Below are positions 4,182 through 26,591 of a stretch of 64,000 nucleotides of DNA, in pieces. The stretch covers positions 124,001 through 188,000 of the forward strand of contig BAIF02000026.1 of the NCBI GenBank assembly GCA_000509105.1, given 5' to 3'. Position 1 is the first letter of the stretch, and every line of letters starts with the position of its first letter. Made by a program: the position numbers and the translations under genes. Source of the stretch: Clostridiales bacterium VE202-21 (GTDB taxonomy: Bacteria; Bacillota; Clostridia; Lachnospirales; Lachnospiraceae). The notes beneath the pieces were generated by a model. That model was given only the letters and a program-made list of their open reading frames with translations, made no database searches and was not told the DNA's origin.

Positions 4182-4493
4182 GGATGCACGTAGCCTGTGG
4201 GGAGCGGGAGGGAAAGGCTGCGGAAAAACACGGCGGGTGATTTCGGAAGCGTAGAATGCGCGATTAGAGCCCGTTACATCAAAGCGGGAGTCTCACATGG
4301 GCAGAATCTGCTTCCGAAGCAGATTCTGAAACAGCCTGAGCTGTGTAATCCATCAGGATTACGCAGTGAATGCTGTTGGACCATGTGAGGCTCCCGCTTT
4401 GATGTTACGGGCTCTTCGCAAATGGAAAGATTCGAAATCACCCGCCGTGTTTTTCCGCAGCCTTTCCCTCCCGCTCTCCACAGGCGACCTCCC
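4182..4493 (+). repeat. Long structured inverted-repeat element, copy E1
   Basis: Fills the gap between two convergent genes. The left box GGATGC...AGC (4182-4194) and right box GCGACC (4484-4489) enclose arms of about 105 bp. The outer 50 bp pair with one G.T mismatch; an unpaired bubble of about 20 bases follows, then a further 32 bp helix. The centre holds a perfect hairpin with a CCGA loop, then a second helix with facing CTGAG and TGAAT strands closed by an ATCA loop. The same core appears in E2 and E3 with different stem sequences. The right edge stops a few bases from the stop codon of the minus-strand gene. I see nothing in the remaining 3991-4181. Confidence 0.85.
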
Positions 4494-4494
4494 T

Positions 4495-7077
4495 CTACAC
4501 ACAAACCACCCGCTGCCCCACAATATCGGAGTATATCTCCACCCCTTCTGATTGAAGTTCTGCTACATGGATGACGTCGGAATAGATTTCTTCCTCGGTG
4601 GTTTCTTTTAGCAGGTTCTCCAAGATGTTTGGGTGTGCGAGTATTTTTTCTTCGTTAAAGTGCACCTGGCTGTCCCCCTGGAACAGGGCGATGTAGAAGA
4701 TGTTGGATTCTACGATATCCTGGAAAAAGTGGCTTCCGTAGGAGAGTTCGGGCATCAGGCCCAGATTCTCGTAGGATACTTCGCAGATGGCCTCCATGCT
4801 GCACAGGTCTGTGAAACGTACCGGGACACCCAGGGCGGGCGTGGTGGTTCCCCAGCGGCCGGGGCCGATCAGGACGGCGTGGCGGTTCCGAAGCAGACGG
4901 TTCAAGGTGCCGATCTGGTTGGCTATGGCATATTTCTGATGCTCGTTCAGTTCCAGATAGGGTTTAATTTTCACAAAAATGATATAGTGAACCGGAAGCC
5001 GGACATTTCCACCCATAAAGTTTCCTTTTGAGGAAAAATAGCTGCGGTCCCTGCCCGTATTTTCAGGGAATTCTACGGTTTTTCCCAGACCCTTTGTCTG
5101 CAGGGGGCGGCATTGCAGCAGATTGATCCGGTAATCTTCCTGTTTATTGAAGTTGCAGGTAAATTCAATATCAACGGGATAGTCGTAAGTATGCGATAAT
5201 ATGGCCAGAATATTTTCCAGCGCCCTGGGGAAATCCGTATGTCTCAGCAGACGGGTGAAACTGACAATATCCGGAACTTTGCGGCCCGGCTGTCCGATTT
5301 CACGGAAATGCCTGGCAAGCTCGTAGTCAGGTTCCATGAAGAGCCGGATATTGGTCTTTAGAGGGAGGCCTGCGGTGTCCTCGATGGGCACGGTCTGGAA
5401 TTCATTTTCCTCCAGATTAATCACATCCACGTAGTGCTGGGAAAATTTCCTTTCATCTCCATAGTTGAGCAGGGGAGGGCGCTCCGGCTTGTCCAGCGCG
5501 ACAATCCGCGGATAGTCCGAATTAACCCGGTCTACGGCGCGGGTGCCCATTCCGAATACAAGACGCAGCATCCCCTTGGACGGATCGGTGTTCTTATCCC
5601 AAACGAACAGGTTAGAAGAATTACCAACTCCGGCACAATGGGGGAAGAAGTATTTGCCGTGGTAATCGCCGGACACTCTCTGTACCAGCAGGGCCATCTG
5701 CTCGTCCTCGCCGGAGAGACCGCGGTTCTTGCGGTACTCCAGAGCCTCCTGGCTCATGACACTGGCATACACCTTGCGCACGGCCTCAAGAAAAGCATCA
5801 TAGCGGTCTTCCGGTGATCCCTGGTTGGGACAGAAGAAACTGTCGTATTTTCCGGCAAATGCATTTCCGAAGTTATCTTCCAGAAGAGAGCTGGAGCGGA
5901 CAATGATAGGAGACTGGCCGTAATATTCCAGCATGACCATGATCTGCTCCTTGATTGCAGGAGGAAAATGCCCGGTCAACAGCTTTTCCCGAAGTTCGGG
6001 AGCCGCACGGAAATATCCTTCCTCCGACTTTTGTTCCATCCGGAGGCGCCAGCAGCCATTTTGTACAATGTAAGTATAGAATACATCCGAGCCAATATAA
6101 TAGGAATCGTGCCGTTCCATATGTTCCCGGTAAAAATCCGGGATTTTCGTTTCCAGTATTTTGCGGGCTAAAAGCATTCCCACCGACTTGCCGCCGATAT
6201 ATCCGGTTCCGATCACCCGGCTGCCGATCTGGATCAGATCCGCCAGTGTGAAGTATTCCCTGCTCAGGGAGGCAATTCTGGGGCGCTGTCCGATGAGAAG
6301 ATTCAGCAGGTTCTCTTTTACATATGCCTGCTCTGCGGAAGCGGCGTTCAGATAGGGCTTGGCCTCCTCAAAGCTTACATCCCAGTAATCCAGTTTTTTT
6401 GTATGGACCTGGAGCCTGGAAAATAACTCAGCAGAGCTTGCACTGTCCGTGATGCACTCTGCGCCGGCCTCTGTTAGCAGGTGAGGCAGAAACATAACGG
6501 GGGAGTAGCGCTCCCAGACCTTCAGCGGGTGCAGATAATAGTTTCCGTCTACAAAATAGAGATTCAAAAGAAGCCTGACAGCTTCCCGGATCCGGGCAAT
6601 GGTATCCGGCGTATGGGCATTCCTGTCAAGTGCAAAACAGGAAACCGTCTCGAGCTCCGACAGATAAGGGCAGGCCACCTGAAAGAAATTCCCGATCATC
6701 AAATCGGAGCACCAGTGCTGCTGCATGTCAGTGAGACAGTCAAAGAGATAGAAGGCGTGCTTCCCCTCTGCTGTGATAATCCGGTATATATCGCTGGTGA
6801 AAGATTCAAAACCATGGCAGACATCAATGGTATACATTTGAAAATCAGCGCCTTCGTCTTTCAGTGCAGCATCATCCACCAGGGGCGCGTGACTGCCAAA
6901 GTGTATATAAAGGATGCGCCTGCGGTCCGCGGCAGCCTGTCTGACAAATTGACGGGCGGCAAATGCGTAGGACTCCAGAGTGTCCACCTGCCAGATGATA
7001 TGATCACCAGGCCGGAGGCCGCCGATTACCTCGTCTGCCCCCGACAGCCCGGTACTTATTTGTTCAATGCTTTCCAT
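4495..7077 (-). CDS. KaiC-like domain fused to PEP synthase/PPDK-type ATP-grasp domain
   Basis: A cytoplasmic protein of 860 residues. Residues 1-260 resemble a KaiC/RecA-like ATPase, opening with TGLSGADEVIGGLRPGDHI. Where the P-loop should be, the sequence reads WQVDTLESY, so that nucleotide site looks dead. From about residue 290 the protein matches the nucleotide-binding half of PEP synthase and pyruvate phosphate dikinase (GGKSVGMLLA, IIVRSSSLLEDNFGNAFAGKYDSFF, LLQCRPLQTKG). The swivelling His domain and PEP-binding barrel of those enzymes are absent, so it cannot complete the PEP cycle alone. Start 7077 follows GGAGG at 7 bases. The substrate is unknown; phosphotransfer to a partner is only a guess. 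Confidence 0.75.
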   Translation of the reverse strand: MESIEQISTGLSGADEVIGGLRPGDHIIWQVDTLESYAFAARQFVRQAAADRRRILYIHFGSHAPLVDDAALKDEGADFQMYTIDVCHGFESFTSDIYRIITAEGKHAFYLFDCLTDMQQHWCSDLMIGNFFQVACPYLSELETVSCFALDRNAHTPDTIARIREAVRLLLNLYFVDGNYYLHPLKVWERYSPVMFLPHLLTEAGAECITDSASSAELFSRLQVHTKKLDYWDVSFEEAKPYLNAASAEQAYVKENLLNLLIGQRPRIASLSREYFTLADLIQIGSRVIGTGYIGGKSVGMLLARKILETKIPDFYREHMERHDSYYIGSDVFYTYIVQNGCWRLRMEQKSEEGYFRAAPELREKLLTGHFPPAIKEQIMVMLEYYGQSPIIVRSSSLLEDNFGNAFAGKYDSFFCPNQGSPEDRYDAFLEAVRKVYASVMSQEALEYRKNRGLSGEDEQMALLVQRVSGDYHGKYFFPHCAGVGNSSNLFVWDKNTDPSKGMLRLVFGMGTRAVDRVNSDYPRIVALDKPERPPLLNYGDERKFSQHYVDVINLEENEFQTVPIEDTAGLPLKTNIRLFMEPDYELARHFREIGQPGRKVPDIVSFTRLLRHTDFPRALENILAILSHTYDYPVDIEFTCNFNKQEDYRINLLQCRPLQTKGLGKTVEFPENTGRDRSYFSSKGNFMGGNVRLPVHYIIFVKIKPYLELNEHQKYAIANQIGTLNRLLRNRHAVLIGPGRWGTTTPALGVPVRFTDLCSMEAICEVSYENLGLMPELSYGSHFFQDIVESNIFYIALFQGDSQVHFNEEKILAHPNILENLLKETTEEEIYSDVIHVAELQSEGVEIYSDIVGQRVVCV

Positions 7078-7236
7078 AGTATTCCTCCATTCCTGCATGG
7101 ACAGCCAATATTATTTCCAGTTTAACACAAATAGAAAAAAAATCAAATGTTGGGAATCCATACATATCCAGCAGACAATCCTGCCATATCGTGGGAGCTG
7201 CATGGCAGGAAAATCCGCAGGCAAAAGGGACAGCTA

Positions 7237-8001
7237 TTAACGGCTGACAATAATGGTTGGATAGCCGGCTCTTTTGAGACGCTGCTCCATGGCTGTTGCA
7301 TCGTCCAGAGTATCATAATTGCCGACCTGAACCCGGAAGAATCCGTCTGTATCTACAATAGATGCCGGGAAATCCTGTTCCAGTAGTTCATTCAGCAGCC
7401 GGTTTGCATAGGTTGGATTTCGGAAAGCGCCCACCTGTACCTTATATCCCGGTGGATCGATGACATGATCCATTTCCAGGGTGTCCAGGATTCCGGAAGC
7501 GATTGCCTGGGCGATTGCGTCGAAATTGTCATCAAAAAGCTGGTTATCTGTGTTGGAGTTGATAAACCCAACTTCTACCAGAACAGCGGGCATTTTTGTG
7601 CGGCGGAGCACCACCAGGTTGGGGCGCGCCTTTACGCCGAGATTCACAAATCCTACGGCCTCCAGCTGCTCATTGATATTTTCAGCCATCTGAAGTTTGA
7701 TTCCGGAGAGATCATATACCAGTGACTCCACTCCTGATACTACGTTGTCTGTGGGAAAAGAGTTCCGATGTATGGAAATGAAAAAATCCACCCCTGCATT
7801 GTTTGCCTCCATTGCTTTTTCATAAGGAGATTCGTATACATCCGTAGTTCTGGTGTATTGTACGTCGATATCATGGTTCTGAAGAATTTCACCAACGGCT
7901 AATGTAAGGCGCAGAGTATCGTCTTTTTCCTGGCGTCCATTATATACGGCGCCTGGGTCACGCCCTCCGTGTCCTGCATCTAACATGATTGAATAAGGCA
8001 T
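7237..8001 (-). CDS. N-acetylmuramoyl-L-alanine amidase (Amidase_3) with C-terminal SPOR domain
   Basis: A zinc amidase that cleaves the bond between MurNAc and the stem peptide. The Amidase_3 domain spans residues 1-178 with zinc ligands H11 (DAGHGG), E25 and H78 (SIHRNS) and the catalytic E143 in VEVGF. A linker leads to a SPOR domain at 184-254 (YKVQVGAFRN...FRVQVGNY), which usually binds denuded peptidoglycan at septa or spore walls. There is no signal peptide: the protein begins directly with PYSIMLDAGHGG. Export must therefore be unconventional, follow lysis, or the upstream start is missed; no better start is visible, and AAAGGAA sits upstream of this ATG. It resembles CwlD-type or endolysin-type amidases; the sporulation link is inference. 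Confidence 0.88.
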   Translation of the reverse strand: MPYSIMLDAGHGGRDPGAVYNGRQEKDDTLRLTLAVGEILQNHDIDVQYTRTTDVYESPYEKAMEANNAGVDFFISIHRNSFPTDNVVSGVESLVYDLSGIKLQMAENINEQLEAVGFVNLGVKARPNLVVLRRTKMPAVLVEVGFINSNTDNQLFDDNFDAIAQAIASGILDTLEMDHVIDPPGYKVQVGAFRNPTYANRLLNELLEQDFPASIVDTDGFFRVQVGNYDTLDDATAMEQRLKRAGYPTIIVSR

Positions 8002-8070
8002 AAGTAAAGATTCCTTTCACATTGTTCTATTTTATGATATGTAGAAAACGCAAGGATGTTCCTGTCCGCC

Positions 8071-8140
8071 AAAGAAAATCGGACCTCCGCATGGAGCCTG
8101 ACTGCTTACGCGCAGTTCTGACACCATTTGGAAGTCCGAT
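8071..8140 (-). terminator. Terminator after the CorC-type gene
   Basis: Read on the minus strand, ATCGGACTTCC pairs with GGTCCGAT across a loop containing a smaller ACTGC/GCAGT hairpin, followed by TTTTCTTT. It lies between the stop of the transporter gene and the start of the amidase gene. Confidence 0.65.
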
Positions 8141-8161
8141 AGGATGACTGGCATGGCAGAA

Positions 8162-9514
8162 TTAGGATCCGCCGTATTCTTTATGCCGTTCTCCATATTC
8201 TTTTTTTGGCGGGACATCATCCGGATCTTCGGAATCTCCGTCCTCTTTATCAGATACTTTCTTTTCAGGCAGATAGACATGTACACTTTCTACCCTATTC
8301 TTATCCAGTGTTTCAACGACCAGCATAATTCCGCTGTCTGTTGTAACCTCGTCACCCACTTCGGGCAGCCTGTCCAGATGCTCTATAATAAAACCGCCGA
8401 GGGAGTCATAATCCTCAGACTGCAGTTCCAGATCCAGACGGTCATTGACATCATCCAGGCTCATGGAGCCTTCGATAATATATTCATTATCGCCAAGCTG
8501 TTTTACGAATTCATCTTCTTTCTCGTCATATTCATCATGGATTTCCCCAACGATTTCCTCCAGAATATCCTCCAGAGTAACAAGGCCGGCTGTTTCACCG
8601 TATTCATCCAGCACAATAGCGATATTAAAAGAGGCATCCCGCATTTCCACGAGCAGCTCGGATATATTTTTATATTCGTAAGTAAAATATGCTTCGCGCA
8701 GTATGTTGCGCACAGAAAATTGCGCCGTACTGTCAAAAAGCAGAAGATCTTTCATATTAATGGTACCGATAACATTATCGGTTGTATCCTCATAAACAGG
8801 GAGACGTGTGAATTTGTCTTCTTTGAAAATATCAATCAGTTCTTTATAAGTACTGTTTACATCTGCAAATGTCACGTGGACACGCGGCACCATAACGTCC
8901 TTAGCACGGGCATCGCCCAGGTCAAACACATTGTAGATCATTTCTTTTTCTTCGGATTCAATGACTCCGTCTTCGTGGCTTACGTCTACGATGGTACGAA
9001 GTTCGTCCTCTGTCATGGCGCTGTTCTTGGCATTGGGATCAATGCGGAATATAAACAGAATTCCATGTGAGAACAGGTTAATGATGAAGATAAATGGGGT
9101 CATCACCACCATAAATGCCCGGATCACCGGGATATAGGCAAGAGACAGCTTCACTGCATTTAAGGTTGCTATGCTCTTTGGAGTAATCTCTCCGAATACG
9201 AGGATCGCAACTGTCAGGATTGCCGTTGCAATGCTGACCATGTAACCACCGAAGCTGTAGGCCAGTGTGGCGGCTAATGAGGAAGCGGAAATATTTACAA
9301 TGTTGTTGCCGATTAAGATTGCGCTCAGCATCTTACGGGAATGCTTTTCCGTAACGTCCAGAACCATCCTGGCCCGTTTATTTCCGTCGTCTGCCAGAGA
9401 ACGCATGCGGATCTTGCTCACCGTGGTAAGCGCCGTCTCCGCGGATGAAAAAAATGCAGACAGTATCAATAAAACGATTAATATAACAAATTGTATGGCA
9501 TCACTCGAGTCCAA
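8162..9514 (-). CDS. CNNM/CorC-HlyC family membrane transporter
   Basis: A membrane protein of 450 residues linked to Mg/Co homeostasis. The CNNM (DUF21) membrane domain covers about residues 1-175, with hydrophobic segments near 8-25, 63-85, 92-112 and 132-155. A CBS pair follows at about 205-320 (VMVPRVHV...LPVYED...VIGTINMKDLL), then a CorC_HlyC domain near 335-415. The last 40 residues are charged and probably disordered (DKEDGDSEDPDDVPP). The start is TTG at 9514, supported by AAAGGAG upstream. The transported ion cannot be told from sequence. Its promoter region lies between it and element E2. Confidence 0.88.
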   Translation of the reverse strand: MDSSDAIQFVILIVLLILSAFFSSAETALTTVSKIRMRSLADDGNKRARMVLDVTEKHSRKMLSAILIGNNIVNISASSLAATLAYSFGGYMVSIATAILTVAILVFGEITPKSIATLNAVKLSLAYIPVIRAFMVVMTPFIFIINLFSHGILFIFRIDPNAKNSAMTEDELRTIVDVSHEDGVIESEEKEMIYNVFDLGDARAKDVMVPRVHVTFADVNSTYKELIDIFKEDKFTRLPVYEDTTDNVIGTINMKDLLLFDSTAQFSVRNILREAYFTYEYKNISELLVEMRDASFNIAIVLDEYGETAGLVTLEDILEEIVGEIHDEYDEKEDEFVKQLGDNEYIIEGSMSLDDVNDRLDLELQSEDYDSLGGFIIEHLDRLPEVGDEVTTDSGIMLVVETLDKNRVESVHVYLPEKKVSDKEDGDSEDPDDVPPKKEYGERHKEYGGS

Positions 9515-9640
9515 TTATCTGTTCACTCCTTTATTATTTTATTGCGTAATTGCTCAAAGCATGTATACCCCCTAAATATACAACATCCGGGGCTTTTTTG
9601 CAAGTAGAGTTTGGGATGTAAGCTTTGGTATTGCGGAGAG

Positions 9641-9950
9641 GGGGCGCAAAATGAAGGGATAGCCGCCAGCCTCCTAAGGGCACACATACCGTTCAAAATT
9701 GCGAACACAGAACCTAAGAAATTCTAAGAAGCAGTCAGCCGCGAGAGTGGGGCACGGGATGGCACATCACGAGAAATCTCATGATTTCTCGCGCTGGGCC
9801 ATCCGCTTTTATGATTCGGAATCATAAAAGCTCCCCACTCTCGCGGCTGGCTGCTTCTTAGAATTTCTAAGGCCTGCTTTAGCAATTTTTGAACGGCATG
9901 TGTGCCCTTAGGAGACTGGCGGCTATCCCTTCATTTTGCTGGGCGCATCC
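9641..9950 (-). repeat. Long structured inverted-repeat element, copy E2
   Basis: On the minus strand the element starts GGATGCGCCCAGC (9950-9938) and ends GCGCCCCC (9647-9640). Arms of about 105 bases pair almost fully (AAAATGAAGGGATAGCCGCC at the outer edge). The centre carries a hairpin with a TCCGA loop, then a GGATGGC/GCCATCC helix closed by an ATGA-loop hairpin. The order and spacing match E1 and E3 while the sequences differ. It sits between the divergent starts of the CorC-type gene and murB. Apart from the repeat at 10051 and the murB promoter I see nothing else in 9515-10226. Confidence 0.85.
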
Positions 9951-10050
9951 AATCGGCAGATGAGCTTGCAAACCAGGGGGAGCTCCATGACGGGGGCAGT
10001 GTATTGAGTCGTTTGGGAGTACAGTATGGAATAGGGATATGGGAGGAGTT

Positions 10051-10104
10051 ATGTATACCTTGTTCCGCAGTTTACTGCGGATCCGCCCGCAGGGGATGTG
10101 TTGC
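10051..10104 (+). repeat. Dispersed hairpin repeat, family 2 copy 1
   Basis: Shares with 19105-19156 and, inverted, 40083-40125 a short hairpin of variable stem (here CCGCAG/CTGCGG) followed by a conserved GCCCGCAGGG-ATG block. An upstream ATAC-TTGTTCCGCA block is shared only with the 19.1 kb copy. Confidence 0.7.
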
Positions 10105-10163
10105 AGCCATCGTTTTGTTCTGTGCGCCATCCGTGCGCAAGTCTAAAGCTTGCGTACTAAACG

Positions 10164-10192
10164 TTGAATTTGGCGGGGGTTTGTTGTATGAT
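10164..10192 (+). promoter_or_regulatory. Sigma-A-type promoter for the murB operon
   Basis: TTGAAT at 10164-10169 and TATGAT at 10187-10192 are separated by 17 bases, 35 bases before the murB start. Confidence 0.6.
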
Positions 10193-10226
10193 TGAGGTGA
10201 AAGTTCAAAAGAATTGGAGATCATGT

Positions 10227-11132
10227 ATGAGTTTATACGAAAAATTATGTGACATACTGGGAGAGAAATGTGTTTTTGCAGATGAACCAATGAGCCGCCA
10301 TACCACATTCCGTATAGGAGGGCCGGCGGATTATTTTGCAGTTCCCTGTGATACCGAAGGCGTAAAAAAGGTCATCGGTTTGTGCAAAGAGGAAGAGGTG
10401 CCTTATTATATTCTGGGGAACGGCAGCAATCTTCTGGTGGGAGACAAAGGATATAGAGGCGTTGTGATTCAGATTTATAAAAATATGAGTGGGATACATG
10501 CTGAGGGGAACCGGATTTATGCGCAAGCTGGCGCGCTGTTGTCTAGGATAGCGGCGGAGGCACTTTTGCACAGCCTGAAGGGGTTTGAGTTTGCATCCGG
10601 GATACCGGGGACACTGGGCGGAGCTGTCATGATGAATGCAGGGGCCTATGGAGGTGAGATGAAGCAGGTTCTGGAGAGCGTGGCTGTTATGACTCCGGAA
10701 GGCGAGGTAAAGACTCTCAGGAAAGATGAGCTGGAATTGGGATATAGAACAAGTATCGTTGCCAAAAAGAATTATATTGTTCTGGAAGCAGTGATCAGGC
10801 TGGAACCGGGAGATGCCGGTGATATCCGTTCTTATATGGAGGAGCTGAAAGAAAAAAGAGTGTCAAAGCAGCCGTTGGAATACCCCAGCGCGGGGAGCAC
10901 GTTCAAACGGCCGGAGGGGTATTTTGCAGGCAGGCTGATAGAGGATGCAGGACTGCGGGGATTTCAGGTAGGAAATGCGCAGGTGTCACAGAAACACTGC
11001 GGATTCGTGATTAACCGGGGCGGCGCTACGGCAGCAGAAGTAATATCCCTGATGGAGCAGGTCGCTGATAAAGTAGAGGAGGTATCCGGCGTCAGGCTGG
11101 AGCCGGAAGTGAAACGGATAGGAGAATTCTGA
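10227..11132 (+). CDS. murB: UDP-N-acetylenolpyruvoylglucosamine reductase
   Basis: Reduces UDP-GlcNAc-enolpyruvate to UDP-MurNAc with NADPH and bound FAD, the second committed step of peptidoglycan synthesis. 301 residues, normal for Gram-positive MurB. FAD-binding motifs are TFRIGGPADYF near the N terminus, LGNGSNLLV, and GIPGTLGGAVMMNAGAYG; YRTSI and the catalytic-Ser motif GSTFKRP lie in the C-terminal half. Start 10227 is preceded by GGAGA at 7 bases. It leads an operon with rapZ one base downstream, then whiA and the crh-like gene. Confidence 0.95.
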   Translation: MSLYEKLCDILGEKCVFADEPMSRHTTFRIGGPADYFAVPCDTEGVKKVIGLCKEEEVPYYILGNGSNLLVGDKGYRGVVIQIYKNMSGIHAEGNRIYAQAGALLSRIAAEALLHSLKGFEFASGIPGTLGGAVMMNAGAYGGEMKQVLESVAVMTPEGEVKTLRKDELELGYRTSIVAKKNYIVLEAVIRLEPGDAGDIRSYMEELKEKRVSKQPLEYPSAGSTFKRPEGYFAGRLIEDAGLRGFQVGNAQVSQKHCGFVINRGGATAAEVISLMEQVADKVEEVSGVRLEPEVKRIGEF

Positions 11133-11133
11133 A

Positions 11134-12012: not shown

Positions 12013-12021
12013 GAGAGAGCT

Positions 12022-13235: not shown

Positions 13236-13272
13236 TCAGATGCATTTTAAAATAGAATAACGGCAGATAAAA

Positions 13273-13302
13273 GTTACTATTCACGGGGCCGTGAATAATA
13301 AC
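13273..13302 (+). repeat. GTTACTAT palindromic repeat, copy 1
   Basis: GTTACTAT precedes TTCACGG-gg-CCGTGAA and a closing ATAATAAC. A second copy near 41818 keeps GTTACTAT and the CACGGGGCCGTG centre but has TGC/GCA in place of TTC/GAA, a paired change. Confidence 0.6.
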
Positions 13303-13334
13303 GATAAAGAATTATGAAGAAAGAACTATATGGA

Positions 13335-17591: not shown

Positions 17592-17699
17592 ACCTGTCAA
17601 TAAAGATATAAAACCGCATAAACACTACTGCACAGTCATTCTACATCCGCCACACCCGGCCTAAGATACCGTCGGAGACGGTCATAATTCCTTCTGACA

Positions 17700-17998
17700 G
17701 GATGAGCCAGCCAGGGGCCAAACGGGACGGGGACAGACGGAAGCATCTATGTGTCTGGTATGCATGAAGCGAGCTTAGCAGCAGTTAGAGGGAACGCATA
17801 AAATCTGCCGGAGAAAAGTTGCTACCGAAGCAACTTTTCCGTACACCTGAGCCGTCTACTCATCAGAGTAGGCGGTGAATGTGTACAGTGCCGGCAGATT
17901 TTGTGCGTACCCTCTTACTGCTGCTTAGCGCAGCGTCAGCATACCAGACACATAGATGCTTCCGTCTGTCCCCGTCCCGTTTGGCCCCTGGCGTCCCC
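17700..17998 (+). repeat. Long structured inverted-repeat element, copy E3
   Basis: Left box GGATGAGCCAGC and right box GCGTCCCCC enclose arms of about 100 bases (outer edge CAGGGGCCAAACGGGACGGGG against its complement). The core is a GAAAAGTTGCT/AGCAACTTTTC hairpin with an ACCGA-type loop, then a GTACAC/GTGTAC helix with facing CTGAG and TGAAT strands and an ATCA loop. It lies between the reductase stop and the fba promoter. The preceding 17592-17699 is A/C-rich with a small ACCGTC/GACGGT hairpin and no gene. Confidence 0.87.
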
Positions 17999-18026
17999 CT
18001 GCCAGCTATTAATTATGATTTTTAGA

Positions 18027-18055
18027 TTGTCTTTTCCCCATCAATAAGCTATAAT
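18027..18055 (+). promoter_or_regulatory. fba promoter
   Basis: TTGTCT (18027-18032) and TATAAT (18050-18055) with 17-base spacing, starting 30 bases beyond the end of element E3. Confidence 0.75.
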
Positions 18056-18125
18056 GTATAAAGATTTGATAACAAACATGCTTGTCGGTTTACCCCGGCA
18101 AGTCATAGTAGTGAAGGAGGATTAT

Positions 18126-18992
18126 ATGTTAGTATCAGCAAAAGAAATGCTTCAAAAGGCAAAGGCTGGCCATTACGCAGTCGGACAGTTTAACATCAAC
18201 AACCTGGAATGGACAAAAGCAATTTTGACAGCAGCCCAGGAGTGCAGCTCTCCGGTAATTTTAGGTGTATCAGAAGGCGCCGGAAAATATATGACAGGTT
18301 ATAAGACAGTGGTAGGTATGGTAAATGGGATGATGGAAGAACTCAACATCACTGTACCTGTTGCACTTCATCTGGATCACGGCAGCTACGAGGGATGCCT
18401 GAAGTGTGTGGAAGCAGGATTTTCTTCTATCATGTTTGACGGTTCCCACTATCCAATCGAGGAGAACGTTGCAAAGACAAAAGAGCTTGTGCAGATCGTA
18501 AAAGAACACGGTATGTCTCTGGAAGCAGAAGTCGGCTCCATCGGCGGCGAGGAAGACGGTGTCATCGGTAAGGGCGAGTGTGCTGATCCTCAGGAATGCA
18601 AGATGGTTGCAGACCTTGGAATTGATTTCCTGGCAGCAGGAATCGGCAATATCCATGGAAAATACCCGGATAACTGGGAAGGGCTGAGCTTTGAGACTCT
18701 GGATGCAATCCAGCAGCTGACAGGGGACATGCCTCTGGTACTTCACGGCGGTACAGGAATTCCGGAAGATATGATCAAAAAGGCAATTGATCTGGGCGTA
18801 GCAAAGATTAATGTAAATACAGAATGCCAGTTATCATTCGCAGCTGCTACACGTAAATATATTGAGGCTGGAAAAGACCTGGAAGGCAAAGGCTTTGACC
18901 CGCGTAAGCTGCTGAAACCAGGCACTGACGCAATTATCGAGACCGTTAAGGAAAAAATGGAATTGTTTGGATCAGTGGGAAAAGCTGAATAA
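18126..18992 (+). CDS. fba: Class II fructose-bisphosphate aldolase
   Basis: Zinc aldolase of glycolysis and gluconeogenesis, 288 residues. Zinc and active-site motifs include VALHLDHGS near residue 80, FSSIMFDGSHYPIEEN, EAEVGSIGGEEDG, GIGNIHGKYP, LHGGTGIPEDMI and KINVNTE. Start 18126 follows AAGGAGG; the longer frame from 18054 begins inside the promoter. Tagatose-bisphosphate aldolase (GatY/KbaY) is a close relative, but the gene stands alone with its own promoter, which fits the housekeeping enzyme. Confidence 0.9.
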   Translation: MLVSAKEMLQKAKAGHYAVGQFNINNLEWTKAILTAAQECSSPVILGVSEGAGKYMTGYKTVVGMVNGMMEELNITVPVALHLDHGSYEGCLKCVEAGFSSIMFDGSHYPIEENVAKTKELVQIVKEHGMSLEAEVGSIGGEEDGVIGKGECADPQECKMVADLGIDFLAAGIGNIHGKYPDNWEGLSFETLDAIQQLTGDMPLVLHGGTGIPEDMIKKAIDLGVAKINVNTECQLSFAAATRKYIEAGKDLEGKGFDPRKLLKPGTDAIIETVKEKMELFGSVGKAE

Positions 18993-19009
18993 AAATTTTA
19001 ATTTTTTAC

Positions 19010-19038
19010 TTGAATTTCCTGGACGATTGAGGTATACT
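19010..19038 (+). promoter_or_regulatory. Candidate promoter directly upstream of a terminator
   Basis: TTGAAT (19010-19015) and TATACT (19033-19038), 17 bases apart. The predicted start is about 12 bases before the terminator stem at 19058, so it would give a leader of only about 50 bases unless read through toward glnN. Confidence 0.5.
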
Positions 19039-19057
19039 GACAAACGTAGATACGAAC

Positions 19058-19096
19058 AAGGGCGTTCCAAGATAACTTGGAGTGCCCTTTTACTTT
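19058..19096 (+). terminator. Terminator between fba and glnN
   Basis: AAGGGC-GTTCCAAG pairs with CTTGGAGTGCCCTT around ATAA, followed by TTTTACTTT. It can end fba and could attenuate glnN. Confidence 0.85.
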
Positions 19097-19104
19097 ATGG
19101 GGAC

Positions 19105-19156
19105 ATTATACATTGTTCCGCACCAAGCTGCGGGTCTGCCCGCAGGGCATGAGTTA
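19105..19156 (+). repeat. Dispersed hairpin repeat, family 2 copy 2
   Basis: TATACATTGTTCCGCA, a CCGCA/TGCGG hairpin and GCCCGCAGGGCATGAGTT; close to the 10.05 kb copy. Confidence 0.7.
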
Positions 19157-19279
19157 CGGGGTGCCTTTTGGGAGTACATAAGACTTATGCAGAACCCATA
19201 GAATAAAGTAATTGAAAACGGGAATTCGCAAGGCTGCCCGGTTCTACAAATTTGAAAAGCGAAGAGAAAGGAAGGATTT

Positions 19280-21394
19280 ATGAGCGCAGAACTAGTCAAT
19301 GTTGCAGAGATTTTTGGGGAAAATGTTTTTAACGATACTGTGATGCAGGAACGTTTGCCGAAAAAAATCTATAAAAACCTGAAGAGAACGATAGAGGAAG
19401 GAAAGGAACTGGATCTTGAGACAGCCGATGTCATTGCACATGAAATGAAGGAATGGGCGATCGAGAAGGGGGCAACTCACTACACGCACTGGTTCCAGCC
19501 TCTGACAGGTGTGACAGCCGAGAAGCATGACTCCTTCATCTCAGCCCCTCTGCCGAGCGGCAAAGTGCTGATGAGCTTCTCTGGAAAAGAACTGATCAAA
19601 GGAGAACCGGATGCATCCTCCTTCCCGTCGGGTGGGCTGCGCGCCACATTTGAGGCGAGAGGATATACGGCCTGGGACTGTACTTCACCGGCATTTGTGA
19701 GACAGGATGCTGCAGGAGCCACACTTTGTATACCGACGGCATTCTGCTCCTATAAGGGAGAAGCGCTGGATCAGAAGACGCCTCTGCTCCGTTCCATGGA
19801 GGCCGTCAGCAAACAGTCTCTCAGGCTGCTTCGCCTTTTTGGAAATACGACTTCTAAAAAAGTGACCCCATCTGTTGGGCCGGAACAGGAGTATTTTCTG
19901 GTAGATGCGCAGAAATTTAAACAGAGGAAGGATCTGATTTATACAGGCCGTACGCTGTTTGGGGCAATGCCTCCGAAGGGACAGGAGCTGGATGACCACT
20001 ATTTCGGAACCATACGCCAGAGAGTTGCATCATTCATGAAGGATGTCAACGAAGAACTCTGGAAGGTAGGCGTATCGGCAAAGACACAGCACAATGAAGT
20101 AGCCCCGGCACAGCATGAGCTGGCTCCCATCTATGCGGAAGCGAATATTGCGGTAGACCACAATCACCTGGTAATGCAGACTCTAAAGAGGGTAGCATGC
20201 CAGCATGGTATGAAGTGCCTGCTCCATGAAAAGCCTTTTGCAGGTGTGAATGGTTCCGGCAAGCACGATAACTGGTCCCTGACCACGGACGATGGAATCA
20301 ACATGCTCGAGCCGGGAAAGACCCCGCATGAAAACACACAGTTTCTGATGGTGCTGACCTGTATTCTGAAGGCGGTTAACAGGCATGCAGATTTGCTGCG
20401 TGAATCGGCTGCAGACCCGGGAAATGACCACAGATTAGGTGCAAATGAGGCTCCGCCGGCTATCATTTCTGTGTTCCTCGGCGAACAGCTGGAGGATGTA
20501 CTGGAGCAGCTGGTCAGCACAGGCGAGGCAACACACAGTCTTAAGGGCGGAAAACTGGAGACCGGAGTGAAGACTCTGCCGGATCTTGCGAAGGACGCAA
20601 CGGACCGAAACAGAACCTCCCCGTTTGCATTTACCGGAAATAAATTTGAATTCCGCATGGTTGGTTCACGCGACTCTGTAGCTGCCCCGAATATTGTGTT
20701 AAACACAATCGTGGCGGAGGCATTTTCAGAGGCATGCGATGTGCTTGAGAAAGCTGACGACTTTGATATGGCCGTTCACGATCTGATCAAAGAATATGCG
20801 ATAGAAAACCAGAAGATCGTATTCAATGGGGATGGCTATTCAGACGCATGGGTAGCGGAGGCCGAAAGACGGGGCCTTCCGAACATCAAATCCATGGTCG
20901 AAGCAATTCCGGCAATGACGACTGAAAAGGCGGTAACCTTGTTTGAGAAGTTCAATGTCTTTACAAGGGCTGAACTGGAATCACGTGCGGAAATCCAGTA
21001 CGAAAGCTATGCCAAGGCCATCAACATTGAGGCCCGCACCATGATCGATATGGCGAGCAAGCAGATCATCCCTGCAATTATGAACTATACAAAGACACTT
21101 GCAGATACGATTCTTGCAGTAAAGGCTGCCGGGGCAGATACCAGTGTGCAGAGTGAACTGCTCAATGAAGTATCAGCGCTTCTTGTCGAAACGAAAACCA
21201 ATCTGAAAACACTGATTAAAGTGACAGAAGAAGCTGCAGAGAAGGAAGAGGGCGCTGTACAGGCGAACTTCTATCATTCCGATGTATTTCCGGCTATGGA
21301 AGATCTGCGGAAACCGGTAGATGCGCTGGAGATGATCGTGGATAAAGATGTATGGCCGATGCCATCCTATGGCGATTTGATATTCGAAGTGTAA
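19280..21394 (+). CDS. glnN: Type III glutamine synthetase
   Basis: Makes glutamine from glutamate, ammonia and ATP. 704 residues, the usual GSIII size and much larger than GSI. Typical GSIII motifs are [85 protein letters not shown] and [19 protein letters not shown]. Start follows GAAAGGAAGG. The upstream terminator with a possible promoter suggests leader control. Confidence 0.96.
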
Positions 21395-21419
21395 GAAATT
21401 CTATAGAAGGATGTAAGCA

Positions 21420-21470
21420 GGGGGCTGCTGCACTGGCTGATTCATATCAGCTGTGCGCAGCCTCCTTTTT
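21420..21470 (+). terminator. Terminator of glnN
   Basis: A GGGGGCTG...GCAC stem pairs with GTGCGCAGCCTCC and ends in TTTTT. It overlaps the 3' end of the convergent DUF4914 gene. Confidence 0.8.
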
Positions 21471-23387
21471 GTGATCTTTTTCTTGATCCGCCGTCTGACC
21501 TGTCGTCTTACGGCCGGAGCCTAACGGGATTATCTTGCAGTAATCCTCTGCGGAACCTCTGTTTTTAAAGCATTCCAGAATCTCTTTTCCTACCGGATGA
21601 AGTTCCTCAGTATCGTAAACAGAAAGTTCTTTTTCAAAGAAACCGTAAAGAATCCCCGCGCCTTTATCATAGCCTGCTTCTCCAAGGGTTTCCTGGTTTT
21701 CCGGACGAAGGAATTTGGAAGAAATCGACTGGCCGTCTACTTTCATCTGTTTCAGTGAATATCCAAGCAGGGAACAGCGGGCTGGGGTCAGACGGTCCAT
21801 TTTCATATTTACGCCACCGCGGCGGGCCAGGTATTCCCGGGAAATCCATTCGGCAGCAAACCCAACTTTGTAAATTCCGATGTGCTGGTTAGGGATCAAT
21901 ACATATCTTGTTTTCGGGCAGCTTAGGATCTGCTCTAAAAGATAATTCGCCTGTTTTATCCGCCGCCCGGTCGCAAACGGCCAGTAGGAGCCAACTCCCT
22001 CGGCGGCAAGCGGAGAACTTCCGTTAATACTTGGATTATTGTATCCGCGCGGCGCGACCAGACGCCACAGCCACGCTATTGCCGGCGGTATGACCTGCAT
22101 CAGTCCGAGAATGCCGTAATCCGGATGTTTTGCGGTGGATGGAGGAGTCCGTACACCAAAGCTCCGCACATTGACTTCCACCGGGCTGGCCACGATGTTC
22201 GGAATCAAGCGGCGCGGTATGATGACTCGTGGGTTCGGGCATGGACTTCCATCTGACTCGATGGTGTGGTCCCACGGAAGACAGGTCGAACGCGGAACCG
22301 CCTGAAGGTTAAAAAATACCAGCGGCTCTTTAGAGTGAACAGCAATTTTTTCATAAAGCGGGTCGCACCCGTATTCTGTAATACCGTCGACCCGGACAAA
22401 CCAGCCATCCTCGCCATCCGTAAGCGCTAATTTCCCACTGCCCGTCTGGATGCGGGGATTGCAGTTCGCCATGTCATCCGTAACCGGCTCGATTGTACAG
22501 GTATCGCTCATGGTGATATAGCGTTTATCTCCCGTAAGTGTATTGACGCCAAGAAGGACGCGGCCGTCTGACTCACGGTGCACATCCTGCAGCAGTTCGC
22601 TCTTACCGCCTCCGGATGCACCTTCATGCATCATAACCATTTCATTTTCATAAGGCGTAATAATGCGGGCTGCCGAAGCATGGGCCGTTACCCAGCCTTC
22701 CTGCTCACCGATGTCAAGAAGCACACTGTAAATCCCTTTTTTGGCAGAAGGCCCGGGATAAAGATTGTAGGAAAATACTTCATGCAATTCGCTGGTGCGG
22801 CAGTGTACACAGACCTGCCTGCCGTTAAAATGAGTATGCCGGAACGGCGGTGCCACATAGACAATTGCCCGCGGCCTGAACGGTTCTTCTATCGTTCTTG
22901 CATTCACAAACGCCTGAAGCTGAGAAACGGCAAATGCAAAAAATGCAGCGTTGCGCGGACAGACTAGCAGTGAATTGTAGCCATACTCAACCCCACCGGC
23001 TTTAAACGGTATGATGATTACCTCCTGACCTGAAAGCCACTGAAAAGTCTGCTCTTTAACGGAAGAAAATTCATAACCATAAGCATCTTGAAACCGGAGC
23101 TTATCAGTTGGCAGATCATCCCCAATCCGCATAGAATCCGCATCACGGCGGCGCATATAATCTTCGGCAAAATTGACGGCAGCGCCATTGCGGCAGCGGG
23201 CGACCGTGGCTTCCAGCACCATTCTGCCTTCTACATTATAGAGGACTTCAATTTCGTCGGTGTGCTCATTTCCAAAGATTAGTTCAAAAAGCATTTCTTT
23301 GCTTTCTGGAATGATCACACTTGGGCTGTTGGAGACAATGTTTTCAAGTTCTTTGGGAAGAATAAACTTTTGAATTAAGGAATGCAT
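21447..23387 (-). CDS. DUF4914 family protein with PEPCK-like P-loop
   Basis: 646 residues, cytoplasmic, recognised as DUF4914 from overall sequence. A phosphate loop EGASGGGKSELL lies near residue 257, resembling the kinase loop of ATP-dependent PEP carboxykinase. Other conserved-looking stretches are YVAPPFRHTHFNGRQVCVHCRTSE and NLQAVPRSTCLPWDH. Activity is unknown; nucleotide-dependent phosphoryl transfer is the inference. It is divergent from aspA and malic enzyme, which hints at C4-acid or oxaloacetate metabolism. The start has an AGGAGG site. The 3' end overlaps the glnN terminator. Confidence 0.75.
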   Translation of the reverse strand: MHSLIQKFILPKELENIVSNSPSVIIPESKEMLFELIFGNEHTDEIEVLYNVEGRMVLEATVARCRNGAAVNFAEDYMRRRDADSMRIGDDLPTDKLRFQDAYGYEFSSVKEQTFQWLSGQEVIIIPFKAGGVEYGYNSLLVCPRNAAFFAFAVSQLQAFVNARTIEEPFRPRAIVYVAPPFRHTHFNGRQVCVHCRTSELHEVFSYNLYPGPSAKKGIYSVLLDIGEQEGWVTAHASAARIITPYENEMVMMHEGASGGGKSELLQDVHRESDGRVLLGVNTLTGDKRYITMSDTCTIEPVTDDMANCNPRIQTGSGKLALTDGEDGWFVRVDGITEYGCDPLYEKIAVHSKEPLVFFNLQAVPRSTCLPWDHTIESDGSPCPNPRVIIPRRLIPNIVASPVEVNVRSFGVRTPPSTAKHPDYGILGLMQVIPPAIAWLWRLVAPRGYNNPSINGSSPLAAEGVGSYWPFATGRRIKQANYLLEQILSCPKTRYVLIPNQHIGIYKVGFAAEWISREYLARRGGVNMKMDRLTPARCSLLGYSLKQMKVDGQSISSKFLRPENQETLGEAGYDKGAGILYGFFEKELSVYDTEELHPVGKEILECFKNRGSAEDYCKIIPLGSGRKTTGQTADQEKDHKKEAAHS

Positions 23388-23486
23388 AATTTCTCCTCCT
23401 GACTTTCATTTAATATTTTTGCGTATTTGAAATTAGGGTATTTCAGAGTACTCTACCACCTCGCACATAATGCTGTCAATATAAAA

Positions 23487-23514
23487 TTGCAAGTTCTTAG
23501 CACAAAACTTGCAA
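23487..23514. promoter_or_regulatory. Inverted-repeat operator candidate between DUF4914 and aspA
   Basis: TTGCAAGTT and AACTTGCAA are perfect 9-base arms with 10 bases between them, in an AT-rich divergent promoter region (23388-23669). The centre-to-centre distance is about two helical turns, fitting a dimeric regulator. Confidence 0.5.
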
Positions 23515-23598
23515 AAATGAGATTTATAAATTATCGAGAAAACAGATGGATGCCCTGAATATAATCAAATAGTTATATCTGATATACAAATATATGTC

Positions 23599-23628
23599 TT
23601 GGATTATAGAAAATTCTGGATTTATAAT
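23599..23628 (+). promoter_or_regulatory. aspA promoter
   Basis: TTGGAT (23599-23604) and TATAAT (23623-23628), 18-base spacing. Confidence 0.6.
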
Positions 23629-23669
23629 ATGGCTAGAAATTGGAAGTTATGGTTAGGAGGTCTTGTGTT

Positions 23670-25124
23670 ATGGTTATGACAAAAAATGTAGATGGAATGG
23701 AGTGCCGGACTGAGAAGGACTCGATTGGAACGAAGGATATTCCGGAAGGGGTCTACTATGGGGTTCAGTCGCTGCGGGCTGCAGAAAACTTCAGGATAAC
23801 GGGGCTGTCAATGCACCCGGAGGTTATCAACAGTCTGGCGCAGATTAAGAAGGCAGCGGCGATCACCAATTGTGAGGCCGGACTGCTGGATAAGCATATT
23901 GCTGAGGCGGTTGTAAAAGCTTGTGATGAAATACTGGAGGGCAAGCTTCATAATGCTTTTATTGTAGACCCGATTCAGGGGGGCGCAGGAACCTCCATTA
24001 ATATGAATGCCAACGAGGTGATTGCCAACCGTGCAATTGAGATATTGGGCGGGCACAAGGGGGACTATTCCATTGTGCATCCGAATGATCATGTCAACTG
24101 CGGACAGTCAACCAACGATGTAATACCTACGGCAGGTAAGATGACTTCTCTGAAGCTGCTCAAGAATGCCAGGAAGGAATTGGAGCGTTTACATAAGGCT
24201 CTGAGCGGAAAAGCGGAGGAATTTGACTCCATCGTAAAAATGGGCAGGACGCAGATGCAGGATGCAGTTCCGATCAGGCTAGGTCAGGAGTTCAGGGCTT
24301 ATTCCGCGGCAATACAAAGAGATATTAACCGTATGGAAAAAGCGCAGGAGGAGATGCGGACTCTGAATTTAGGCGGGACGGCGATCGGAACCGGTATCAA
24401 TGCGGATGAGGCATACCTGCGGCGGATCGTTCCGAATCTGGCACAGATCAGCGGAATGGATTTTGTGCAGGCTTATGATCTGATCGATGCCACCCAGAAT
24501 CTGGATCCCTTTGTGGCCGTATCGGGTGCAGTTAAGGCCTGTGCCGTAACACTTTCCAAAATTGCAAATGACTTCCGGCTGATGTCTTCGGGGCCAAGAT
24601 GCGGCTTTGGGGAGATCAATCTGCCCGCAAAACAGAACGGCTCCTCCATAATGCCGGGGAAGGTGAATCCGGTCATCCCCGAAGTCGTGAACCAGGTTGC
24701 CTTTCTTATTATTGGAAATGATGTAACAATTACAATGGCTGCCGAAGCAGGGCAGCTGGAATTAAATGCTTTTGAACCGATCGTGTTTTACTGCCTGTTT
24801 CAGTCAATTGATACCTTGGCATATGCGGTGGAGACTTTTGTGGATAATTGTGTAAATGGGATTACTGCAAACAAGGAACGCTGCAGGGAATTAGTGGATA
24901 ACAGCGTGGGGATTGTGACGGCCCTCTGTCCTTATGTAGGATATGCGAAATCTGCTGCTCTGGCGAAAGAGGCTTTGAAAAGCAAAGTCCCTGTCAGAAA
25001 GCTGATTCTGGATGAGGGACTGCTCAATGAGGCCGAACTGGATGAAATACTGGATGTGAAGAGTATGACAGAACCTGGGATATCGGGGAAAGAGCTGCTG
25101 CTCAAAAAGCAAATAAAAGCTTAA
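23670..25124 (+). CDS. aspA: Aspartate ammonia-lyase
   Basis: Interconverts aspartate with fumarate and ammonia. 484 residues of the fumarase/aspartase superfamily, signature GSSIMPGKVNPVIPEVVNQ near residue 328; the VIPE continuation is aspartase-like where fumarase has TQCE. The substrate region GGAGTSINMNANEVIANRA and the C-terminal PGISGKELL also fit aspartase. Start 23670 follows AGGAGG at 9 bases. Malic enzyme follows after 72 bases, probably in the same transcript; no fumarase is in the window. Confidence 0.92.
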   Translation: MVMTKNVDGMECRTEKDSIGTKDIPEGVYYGVQSLRAAENFRITGLSMHPEVINSLAQIKKAAAITNCEAGLLDKHIAEAVVKACDEILEGKLHNAFIVDPIQGGAGTSINMNANEVIANRAIEILGGHKGDYSIVHPNDHVNCGQSTNDVIPTAGKMTSLKLLKNARKELERLHKALSGKAEEFDSIVKMGRTQMQDAVPIRLGQEFRAYSAAIQRDINRMEKAQEEMRTLNLGGTAIGTGINADEAYLRRIVPNLAQISGMDFVQAYDLIDATQNLDPFVAVSGAVKACAVTLSKIANDFRLMSSGPRCGFGEINLPAKQNGSSIMPGKVNPVIPEVVNQVAFLIIGNDVTITMAAEAGQLELNAFEPIVFYCLFQSIDTLAYAVETFVDNCVNGITANKERCRELVDNSVGIVTALCPYVGYAKSAALAKEALKSKVPVRKLILDEGLLNEAELDEILDVKSMTEPGISGKELLLKKQIKA

Positions 25125-25196
25125 GGATATAAAAAGTAGAATCGTACAACAGGATAGACAAGTAACAGGTTAAGGAAAAAGAAAGTGAGGTCAGTT

Positions 25197-26351
25197 ATGG
25201 ATTACGAAAAGAAAGCTCTGTATATGCATGAAAAATTCCATGGGAAAATCGAGGTTTGCAGTAAAGTTCCCCTGGAAACAAGAGAAGACCTAAGTACCGC
25301 CTATACGCCCGGCGTTGCCCGGCCCTGCATGGAAATACACAGGGATGAGAAAAAAGCATACAACTATACCGCAAAAGGCAATTTAGTAGCTGTTGTAACG
25401 GATGGAACGGCAGTATTGGGACTGGGTGACATCGGTCCGAAAGCAGCCATGCCGGTCATGGAAGGAAAAGCTATCCTATTCAAAGAGTTTGGAGGTGTAG
25501 ATGCATTTCCCATATGTCTGGACACGAAAGACACGGAAGAAATTATTGAGACCGTGAAACGCATTGCCCCAGTTTTCGGCGGTATTAACCTGGAGGATAT
25601 TTGTTCGCCCAAATGTTTCGAGATTGAGCAGAGACTTGAAAAGGAATTGGACATACCGGTTTTTCATGACGACCAGCACGGAACGGCAATTGTAACGACG
25701 GCTGCTCTGATGAATGCGCTTAAGGTAGTGGGCAAGAAAATAGACGGCATAAAAGTTGTACTTAACGGTCCGGGCAGCGCAGGTAGCGCAATTGCCAAAA
25801 TGCTGCTTCATGCAGGCGTAAAGCATATGACGATCTGTGACCTGGAAGGGATACTGGCGGAAGGCTGTTCCTTTGCCGTCGGGCATAAACTGGAGCTGGC
25901 AAGACTCACAAATCCGGAGAAAATTACCGGAGCCCTCCAGGATGCAGTCAGGGGGGCAGATGTCTTCATAGGAGTTTCCGCGGGTAACATTTTGACAAAA
26001 GAAATGGTACGCACGATGGCGCCGGAACCAATCGTATTCGCAATGGCAAACCCCACGCCGGAAATCACTTACGAAGATGCCAAAGAAGCAGGAGTAAAAA
26101 TAATCGGGACCGGACGTTCCGACTATCCGAACCAAATCAACAACGTCCTTGCCTTCCCCGGCCTCTTCAGGGGAGCACTGGACGCAGGAGCAAGAGACAT
26201 CACCTACGACATGAAGCTGGCCGCCGCCCGCGCAATAGCATCATTGGTAAACGAAAAAGAATTGAACCCAGACTATATCATCCCATCCCCATTCGACAAA
26301 CGGGTAGCCGCCAAAGTAGCTCAGGAAGTCGCAAAATGCGTTCACAGATAA
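25197..26351 (+). CDS. NAD(P)-dependent malic enzyme
   Basis: Oxidatively decarboxylates malate to pyruvate. 384 residues, the short bacterial form. Catalytic region STAYTPGVARPC near residue 38 and AVVTDGTAVLGLGDIGPKAAMPVMEGK; metal/active-site residues in INLEDI and PVFHDDQHGTA; Rossmann loop LNGPGSAGSAIAKML. Start 25197 (ATG) is preferred over the in-frame GTG at 25185, which lies within the probable ribosome site. With aspA it forms an aspartate-fumarate-(malate)-pyruvate route. The 3' third is rich in A- and C-ending codons. Confidence 0.9.
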   Translation: MDYEKKALYMHEKFHGKIEVCSKVPLETREDLSTAYTPGVARPCMEIHRDEKKAYNYTAKGNLVAVVTDGTAVLGLGDIGPKAAMPVMEGKAILFKEFGGVDAFPICLDTKDTEEIIETVKRIAPVFGGINLEDICSPKCFEIEQRLEKELDIPVFHDDQHGTAIVTTAALMNALKVVGKKIDGIKVVLNGPGSAGSAIAKMLLHAGVKHMTICDLEGILAEGCSFAVGHKLELARLTNPEKITGALQDAVRGADVFIGVSAGNILTKEMVRTMAPEPIVFAMANPTPEITYEDAKEAGVKIIGTGRSDYPNQINNVLAFPGLFRGALDAGARDITYDMKLAAARAIASLVNEKELNPDYIIPSPFDKRVAAKVAQEVAKCVHR

Positions 26352-26476
26352 GCTGTTTGTGATGAAGCAAAAATCCAGAAAAATTTACTTCCAAACCCAA
26401 AAGACAACAACTGTGTATCCAATCCCATCCACTTCACCCGCAAGAACCTCCCCCAAAAAAGCATATCCATCCCATT

Positions 26477-26591
26477 GGAAGCGCACAGCCTATGGGGAGC
26501 CGGACTTCTGCGGGGGGCAGGAAACTTCTGGACACCTTTTCGGAAGTTTCCTGCCCCCCGCAGAAGTCCGGCTCCCCACAGGCGTCCCCCC
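26477..26591 (+). repeat. Short, coreless inverted-repeat element, copy E4
   Basis: Left box GGAAGCGCACAGC and right box GCGTCCCCC match E1-E3. The arms (from CTATGGGGAGCCGG to about 26530) pair almost perfectly with their complement but close on a simple loop of about 13 bases; the three-way core is missing. The outermost arm bases resemble E1 (CTRTGGGGAGC). It sits between malic enzyme and the csoR promoter; upstream 26352-26476 is A/C-rich and geneless. Confidence 0.85.

Follow-up and report, generated by a model that had tools for sequence, protein, structure and literature searches.

What are the four long palindromes, each with two arms that pair almost perfectly, that lie between the genes of a clostridial chromosome segment? 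The segment, hereafter the window, comprises 64,000 nucleotides of Clostridiales bacterium VE202-21 (contig BAIF02000026.1, positions 124,001 to 188,000), whose family label, Lachnospiraceae, is that of the first-pass annotation of this DNA, and the palindromes, E1 to E4, stand between positions 4182 and 26591 of it. Direct reading of the sequence agrees with that annotation on the places of the four elements, on their terminal boxes and on their near-perfect arms. We find that they belong to a family with further copies in this genome and in its relatives. E1 to E4 look like half-units of a larger element, E4 being a deletion derivative, and the reading that we favor, and consider likely, is that they are half-units of non-autonomous mobile DNA resembling REPINs (paired repetitive extragenic palindromes, REPs), whose folded DNA would serve as the transposition substrate.

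The family and its fold

E1, E2 and E3 each fold into one very long stem leading to a three-way junction with two hairpins, and E4 folds as a plain hairpin with no junction; inverted-repeat detection gave the same arms as the folds for these elements. Common to the junctions of E1, E2 and E3 are hairpin A (11-12 bp) and hairpin B, the latter with an internal loop CTGA/GAAT and a loop ATCA in E1 and E3 and in a variant form in E2. The annotation had described a set of four elements that share only their ends. The ends are indeed common, but E1 to E3 also share the junction and both hairpins, and the set divides into these three full copies and E4, which, besides having no junction, gave no match in a window search with the model R1 described below.

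The hairpin-B pattern CTGAGCN{12,36}GTGAATG occurs 24 times in the source genome (G000, 5.3 Mb; the other G-numbers denote genomes of relatives), compared with no occurrence of a reversed control, and at least 3 of 20 pattern loci fetched (L012, L025 and L027) form no stem, so that a few of the 24 are chance. R1, a covariance model of the apex, was made from 17 aligned sequences with the structure of E1 laid on them. E2 was left out because MAFFT misaligned it, and since it thus lay outside the training set, the match of R1 to E2 is an independent test. The annotation had suggested a search of this kind, which did yield further copies: R1 has at least 74 matches in the genome at E<=0.001, three of them weak (150 of 1232 candidates scored). 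Among relatives, R1 was present in 5 of 60 genomes, all of the same family (5 of 36, compared with 0 of 24 from other families). A second model, R2, built from 64 chosen loci (74 matches), was present in 33 of 397 family genomes and 28 of 334 genera, in a survey counting up to 9 copies per genome. With 150 candidates scored per genome, eight element genomes gave at least 13, 28, 34, 95, 5, 61, 21 and 2 matches, the at least 95 being those of G203. When R2 was run at E<=0.001 on 110 loci (0.93 Mb; 30 of 117 and 80 of 120 listed loci) from genome and virus collections, chosen for holding a similar 14-base pattern, it returned 0 matches, and given this result the pattern matches in those collections are set aside as chance rather than as family members. 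The family itself is real and not a product of chance.

The anatomy of a half-unit was read from 104 of 114 extracted matches, those with a stem span below 230 bp or a short model match being left out. Outermost lies a terminal box that usually reads GTCCCC(C) in G000, according to a profile of 45 copies picked by a stem-foot pattern which itself fixes two of the profile positions. Inside it follow an outer stem of about 35-140 bp and an asymmetric internal loop, the right strand of which is often GCAAAYGG in G000. Next come one or two T.T mismatches, spaced by about a turn of the helix, then some 24 bp of further stem, and finally the junction carrying hairpins A and B, with the CTGA/GAAT internal loop of B in the best-kept copies. 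Of the 104 copies, 88 have a T.T mismatch at a distance of 23-28 bp from the junction and 60 have one at 32-38 bp, compared with 0 and 2 copies in two control windows farther out. The exceptions are three G036 copies that lack the first mismatch and the copies of G033 and G015, which lack the second; in G026 the second is found in 6 of 19. The whole half-unit measures about 400 nt, and its terminal sequence varies between genera; in G000 it reads GGC then GTCC, which places CGTC next to the hairpin foot.

Folded DNA or RNA

Conserved pairing with changing sequence, proposed in the annotation, is borne out by an alignment, A4, of 74 matches (73 distinct) from six genera, which was fitted to the model and is therefore biased towards it. 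Standard pairs fill 96.4% of its paired cells, compared with 55.6% when partners are shuffled, and the covariation score is 1.015, compared with 0.216 for shuffled and at most 0.156 for slid partners. Cells changed on both sides number 1356 (380 shuffled), and 35 of the 46 pairs show at least three Watson-Crick types, each in at least four sequences.

Covariation this strong is known mostly from structured RNAs. When an RNA helix is under selection, G-U pairs normally outnumber A-C by a wide margin. One rival reading is a non-coding structured RNA, or an element of the 3' untranslated region (a terminator, a stabilizer or a trans-acting RNA), kept for its RNA fold, and the RNA-like architecture speaks for it together with the covariation. 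In helices 1-3, 2436 of 2550 cells are Watson-Crick, with 42 G-T, 28 A-C and 44 others; because G-T wobble is scarce in three of the four helices, the constraint looks like one on DNA, and the structural RNA that the annotation had entertained is weakened accordingly. Another of the annotation's options, a single-strand DNA substrate, is among the supported readings. Folded DNA, rather than RNA, is probably the selected form.

The position of the elements relative to genes bears on the same choice. In a survey of 105 copies (stem spans below 230 bp left out; crude open reading frame, ORF, calls), the right neighbor gene points at the element in 68 cases and away in 25 (p 9e-6), the left one in 49 and 43, and in G000 the stop codon of a convergent right neighbor lies 0-50 bp from the long hairpin, H2, in 35 of 38 such cases. 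This is what a 3'-end RNA element might give, subject to the crude gene calls; end sequences of the form TA-A.. or TA-G.. would make stop codons and may in this way place the end of H2 beside convergent stops. The RNA rival is also hard to reconcile with single inserts that lose pairing and with a patchy distribution of up to 95 matches per genome among the candidates scored. No Rfam 15 family lies over the elements at gathering score in the whole window, where only two tRNAs were found, which agrees with the annotation's expectation and led us to reject an Rfam-like reading; a lax search of positions 1-30000 gave over the elements just microRNA-like long-hairpin matches, below gathering thresholds. 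All considered, we regard the RNA rival as unlikely.

Some counts nevertheless pull against folded DNA as the selected form. Helix 4 has 63 G-T of 784 cells, an RNA-like proportion that comes partly from one G-T pair beside the internal loop. Both-side change, seen in 46 of 46 pairs, is weak evidence when taken alone, the shuffled mean being 42.4. A first wobble test on the resident copies of G000 gave 39 G-T and 18 A-C in the middle region, alongside 27 and 22 outside it and 15 and 15 near the junction; G026 and G015 lean to A-C, partly through one fixed position. Our reading relies on the later count over helices 1-4 instead of this first test, because a pairwise comparison of copies led us to read the mismatches of resident copies as decay. 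Neutral decay probably accounts for most of the mismatches now present, and this in turn weakens the wobble test. A control of 9 tRNAs (63 pairs) gave 5 G-T and 0 A-C and is too small to lean on.

That pairwise comparison covered 8 chosen G000 copies (28 pairs) and 10 G035 copies. Among the 16 closest of the 28 pairs, double changes that keep a pair number from 2 to 14, rising with divergence, and pair-breaking changes 2-10; the G035 copies differ mostly by single changes. On these counts, pairing appears to be kept in the spreading lineage and lost in resting copies, and we read this as inserted single copies decaying while the family keeps its pairing. The same data bear on a rival in which template-switch repair between the arms, and not selection, keeps the pairing. 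Such quasi-palindrome correction is a known mutational process, and arms that stay near-perfect though their sequence changes are what it would produce; yet it should also erase the T.T mismatches and the asymmetric loop, both of which persist in several genera, and the G035 copies gather single changes that have gone uncorrected. We give this rival little credence.

Copies, borders and candidate mobilizers

The annotation had judged the elements unlike a recently copied insertion sequence (IS) or miniature inverted-repeat transposable element (MITE), with arms that barely match between copies. Arms do vary from one subfamily to another, but there are copies with 87-94% identity across the hairpin, and the judgement itself is not supported: related copies share borders in unrelated surroundings and have inverted ends, as MITEs and REPINs do. 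In G035, a one-contig genome, ten copies share about 455 bp with inverted ends TAAATTCAGGTTTATCGCGC in unrelated surroundings and are 73-98% identical among the pairs listed. In related G000 copies, similarity extends over a leader of about 100 nt and the hairpin to a few bases past it, after which the sequences diverge; 50 of the 252 local alignments made between G000 copies stop 0-9 bp after H2, and these form one of the two main clusters of ends. Some leaders upstream of H2 in G026 (among L243-L255) are tandem repeats of about 90 bp with a CCCGTGCC..GGCACG hairpin.

At several loci two halves stand head to head with their leaders pairing with each other, and more partner halves were found in flanks. 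Such (-,+) pairs occur in G109, G203, G254, G172, G255 and G000; many G000 copies are single halves. The one-contig genome G109 has 7 neighboring pairs, all (-,+) and 394-479 bp apart, among 25 of 28 matches listed. Of 20 loci fetched from G203, 11 have two clear borders, and these complete units measure 894-1086 bp, and have inverted ends like TAAATTTGGGTTTAGC / TTAAATTTGGGTTTAGCTGA; read by eye, 10 of the 11 left borders carry TA, and so do 10 of the 11 right borders. The longest open frame in the 11 units has 154 aa, and four open frames of 113-228 aa in other copies matched no Pfam family. A border search by half-to-half alignment of 19 composites gave mixed limits and was not used, and an inverted leader copy upstream is clear in just a few copies.

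From these copies and borders, the elements are very probably mobile DNA. A complete unit would read, head to head, inverted terminal repeat, H2', leader', loop, leader, H2 and terminal repeat. A transposase acting in trans would need the halves folded, as single-stranded or cruciform DNA, and might contact the terminal box, the T.T mismatches, the loop and the three-way junction, so that only well-folded elements would spread. The enzyme might conceivably be a Y1/HUH transposase of the REP-associated tyrosine transposase (RAYT) type or of the TIRYT type (tyrosine transposases associated with terminal inverted repeats, TIRs).

The TA borders and inverted repeats of G203 would equally suit ordinary MITEs of a TA-targeting DDE transposon (IS630/Tc1-mariner type) with incidental hairpins. 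A plain MITE, though, could do without a conserved internal junction, T.T mismatches and paired changes, and the IS630-type domain DDE_3 (PF13358) was found in 2 of 33 element genomes compared with 7 of 29 without elements, a distribution on which we rejected an IS630 mobilizer; the MITE rival as a whole is improbable. A retroelement, its folded RNA copied by a reverse transcriptase in trans, would account for the folded unit and for a variable C-rich tail in G000. Its inverted ends speak against it, as does a search, mostly of the first six element genomes, in which RVT_1 had some matches in four and 0 in G026 and G033, both of which carry elements (unless the assemblies miss the gene); we rejected this rival, which has only the slightest chance of being right.

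Each of the six element genomes first identified encodes a long RAYT-like protein (Y1/HUH); this was discarded as proof when examination of 397 genomes left only an enrichment, though a strong one. Three of these RAYT-like proteins match the NCBIfam REP-associated tyrosine transposase, two just under the cut-off and one just over it, the last also matching IS200 weakly. In a tree, seven RAYTs of the six genomes and one of G032 form one clade (98/96 support), with an eighth, of G036, outside. With the clade cut at the gap between 276 and 233 bits, a clade RAYT is present in 13 of 33 element genomes compared with 15 of 364 others (p = 1e-8, ignoring phylogeny and genome size). When RAYTs of every kind are counted at E<=1e-20, the figures are 19 of 33 and 56 of 364. 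The heads of small REPs beside RAYT genes resemble, by eye, the ends of the elements: AATTTGGG in G203, AATTCAGG in G035 and also beside the G036 RAYT, and GGGGGGAC in G000.

A number of observations weigh on the other side. Fourteen of the 33 element genomes, including the one-contig G070, have no RAYT at E<=1e-20, and the RAYT of G172 is a broken fragment. A scan of 30 RAYT-type loci (2.4-3.7 kb), of which 28 belong to the clade and 13 come from element genomes, gave 0 R2 matches, and 16 RAYT loci of 3.4-6.3 kb gave 0 R1 matches; many clade RAYT genes (L337-L360, from several genera) are flanked by small REPs of their own, approximately AATTnrGGGACGTAGnA. As for the borders, TA comes from the one genome G203, is mixed in G035 and in G000 is seen just in the C34 unit; in L401 and L404 the inverted arms run on beyond TA, which makes any exact ends tentative. 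Mobility is read without any transposition event or empty site, and about 100 of 132 ends listed in G203 include no autonomous copy. In six stretches fetched from G035, extra ends lie mostly at short or broken copies, with no transposase among the ORFs listed. We accordingly treat a RAYT-type mobilizer as the best lead and not as a result, and as a rather doubtful one.

One G203 copy of 1.9 kb looked like a candidate autonomous element (L445:1391-3349, on G203:C5). Its transposase gene is of the IS1182 family (NF033551, E=4.4e-99) and has its own ends, and we set it aside as a passenger that seems to have entered the leader hairpin at its apex. IS1272 belongs to the IS1182 family. A habit of replacing inverted repeats has been reported for IS1272 (PMC5678879), and the L445 insertion fits it.

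The window elements and known systems

In the window, the E1 half-unit (H2), a long hairpin with the three-way junction, spans 4193-4485 on the plus strand by fold and arms, with an R1 match at 4284-4398 (E=1.5e-24; E1 is in the training set). Its left box GGATGCACGTA (4182-4192) would be the 3' end of the leader and the closing arm of a separate hairpin, H1, by analogy with copy C23:3559, in which, as in other copies with an inverted upstream stretch, the left box closes a hairpin with upstream DNA. The basal helix GGATGC/GCGTCC that the annotation had drawn is weak in the folds and gives way to this upstream pairing. The right terminal box of E1, GACCTCCCT (4486-4494), assigned from the box profile of G000, directly adjoins the stop codon, at 4495-4497 (complement of CTA), of the convergent gene that spans 4495-7098. 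The C-rich leader, of about 100 nt, covers approximately 4092-4181 on the plus strand, from a comparison of leader rows, and 3991-4091, again with approximate limits, probably holds the remains of the inverted partner half, as the fold of the upstream stretch suggests. E1 lies between a UvrA-like gene and the convergent gene, which encodes a PPDK_N domain (1465-7098).

The E2 half-unit, on the minus strand at 9646-9939, is a long hairpin with a divergent apex by fold and arms (R1 match 9735-9849, E=3.9e-15); read on that strand, its left box is GGATGCGCCCA (9940-9950) and its right terminal box GCCCCC (9640-9645), with a probable leader at approximately 9951-10045, read against the leader rows of other copies. 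The E3 half-unit, with junction, occupies 17710-17992 on the plus strand by fold and arms (R1 match 17795-17908, E=1.1e-22; in the training set), between the left box GGATGAGCCA (17700-17709) and the right terminal box GTCCCCC (17993-17999), and lies before a class II aldolase gene (17700-18992). E4, likewise on the plus strand, retains outer arms only (26488-26583) between the boxes GGAAGCGCACA (26477-26487) and GTCCCCCC (26584-26591). Because parts of both its ends align with the outer arms of full copies such as C140:53045 and the middle is absent, it is an internal-deletion derivative. Its neighbors are a malic enzyme gene on one side and a metal-sensing repressor gene on the other (25185-26970). 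Two other inverted repeats of the window, at 29611-29657 (22 bp perfect, 3-nt loop) and 60942-61104 (69 nt at 72%), gave no R1 match.

How does this family compare with known systems? No paper on such a family was found in the literature searched, subscription papers and preprints being outside its reach. The nearest counterparts are REPINs and bacterial interspersed mosaic elements (BIMEs), mobilized by RAYTs (Bertels and Rainey 2011, PMC3116915). The elements resemble them in being intergenic and non-autonomous, in their two inverted half-units, single-stranded DNA fold and high copy number, and in the occurrence of singlets beside doublets. They differ in having halves of about 400 nt with a three-way junction, compared with short REPs of about 20-40 nt with a conserved foot tetranucleotide, and in that no RAYT gene was found beside the elements or, indeed, anywhere in the 14 genomes mentioned above. 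CGTC-tagged REPs form head-to-head dimers with no dedicated transposase, and the TIRs of tyrosine transposases share GGGGWSAS (Di Nocera 2013, PMC3733652); head-to-head dimers and CGTC beside the hairpin foot recur in our G000 elements, and the TIRYT-associated motif resembles their GGGGGGAC end. The CGTC REPs have, however, stems of 8-9 bp and come mostly from alpha-Proteobacteria, and the sections of that paper compared contain no 300-nt hairpin or junction. TnpA-REP of E. coli requires single-stranded DNA folded into a hairpin that has a bulge and a conserved motif at its foot (Corneloup 2021, PMC8266576), which makes it a model, by analogy, for possible roles of the T.T mismatches and terminal box; its substrates are short REPs, unlike the present elements. 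With MITEs the elements have in common inverted ends, a possible TA target, the absence of a recognizable gene and dispersed copies, but not an internal fold kept across genera by paired changes, and no parent transposon was found. REPIN-like in form and with giant halves, the family should, by the features tested, be filed neither with RAYT/REPIN elements nor with IS630-type MITEs. It is possible, though we would not bet on it, that it represents a new class of bacterial mobile element in which the mobility signal would be the conserved three-dimensional shape of a large DNA fold, here the 300-nt hairpin with its three-way junction and spaced T.T mismatches; the fold would evolve as DNA by ribozyme-like compensatory changes, and the enzyme would read its shape and not its sequence.

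Five G000 contigs (C93, C141, C25, C36 and C49) have an R1 match within about 100 bp of a contig end, where the palindromes may break assembly, and the elements may explain some of the assembly breaks in such genomes. For the biology of the family, what we seem to be seeing, so far in 28 genera, is strong covariation in DNA whose movement requires folding. If this is true, REPIN-like biology would extend to units about ten times larger, and the family would offer a natural collection of many independently reached versions of a single DNA fold, which could be used to work out that fold and its protein contacts.

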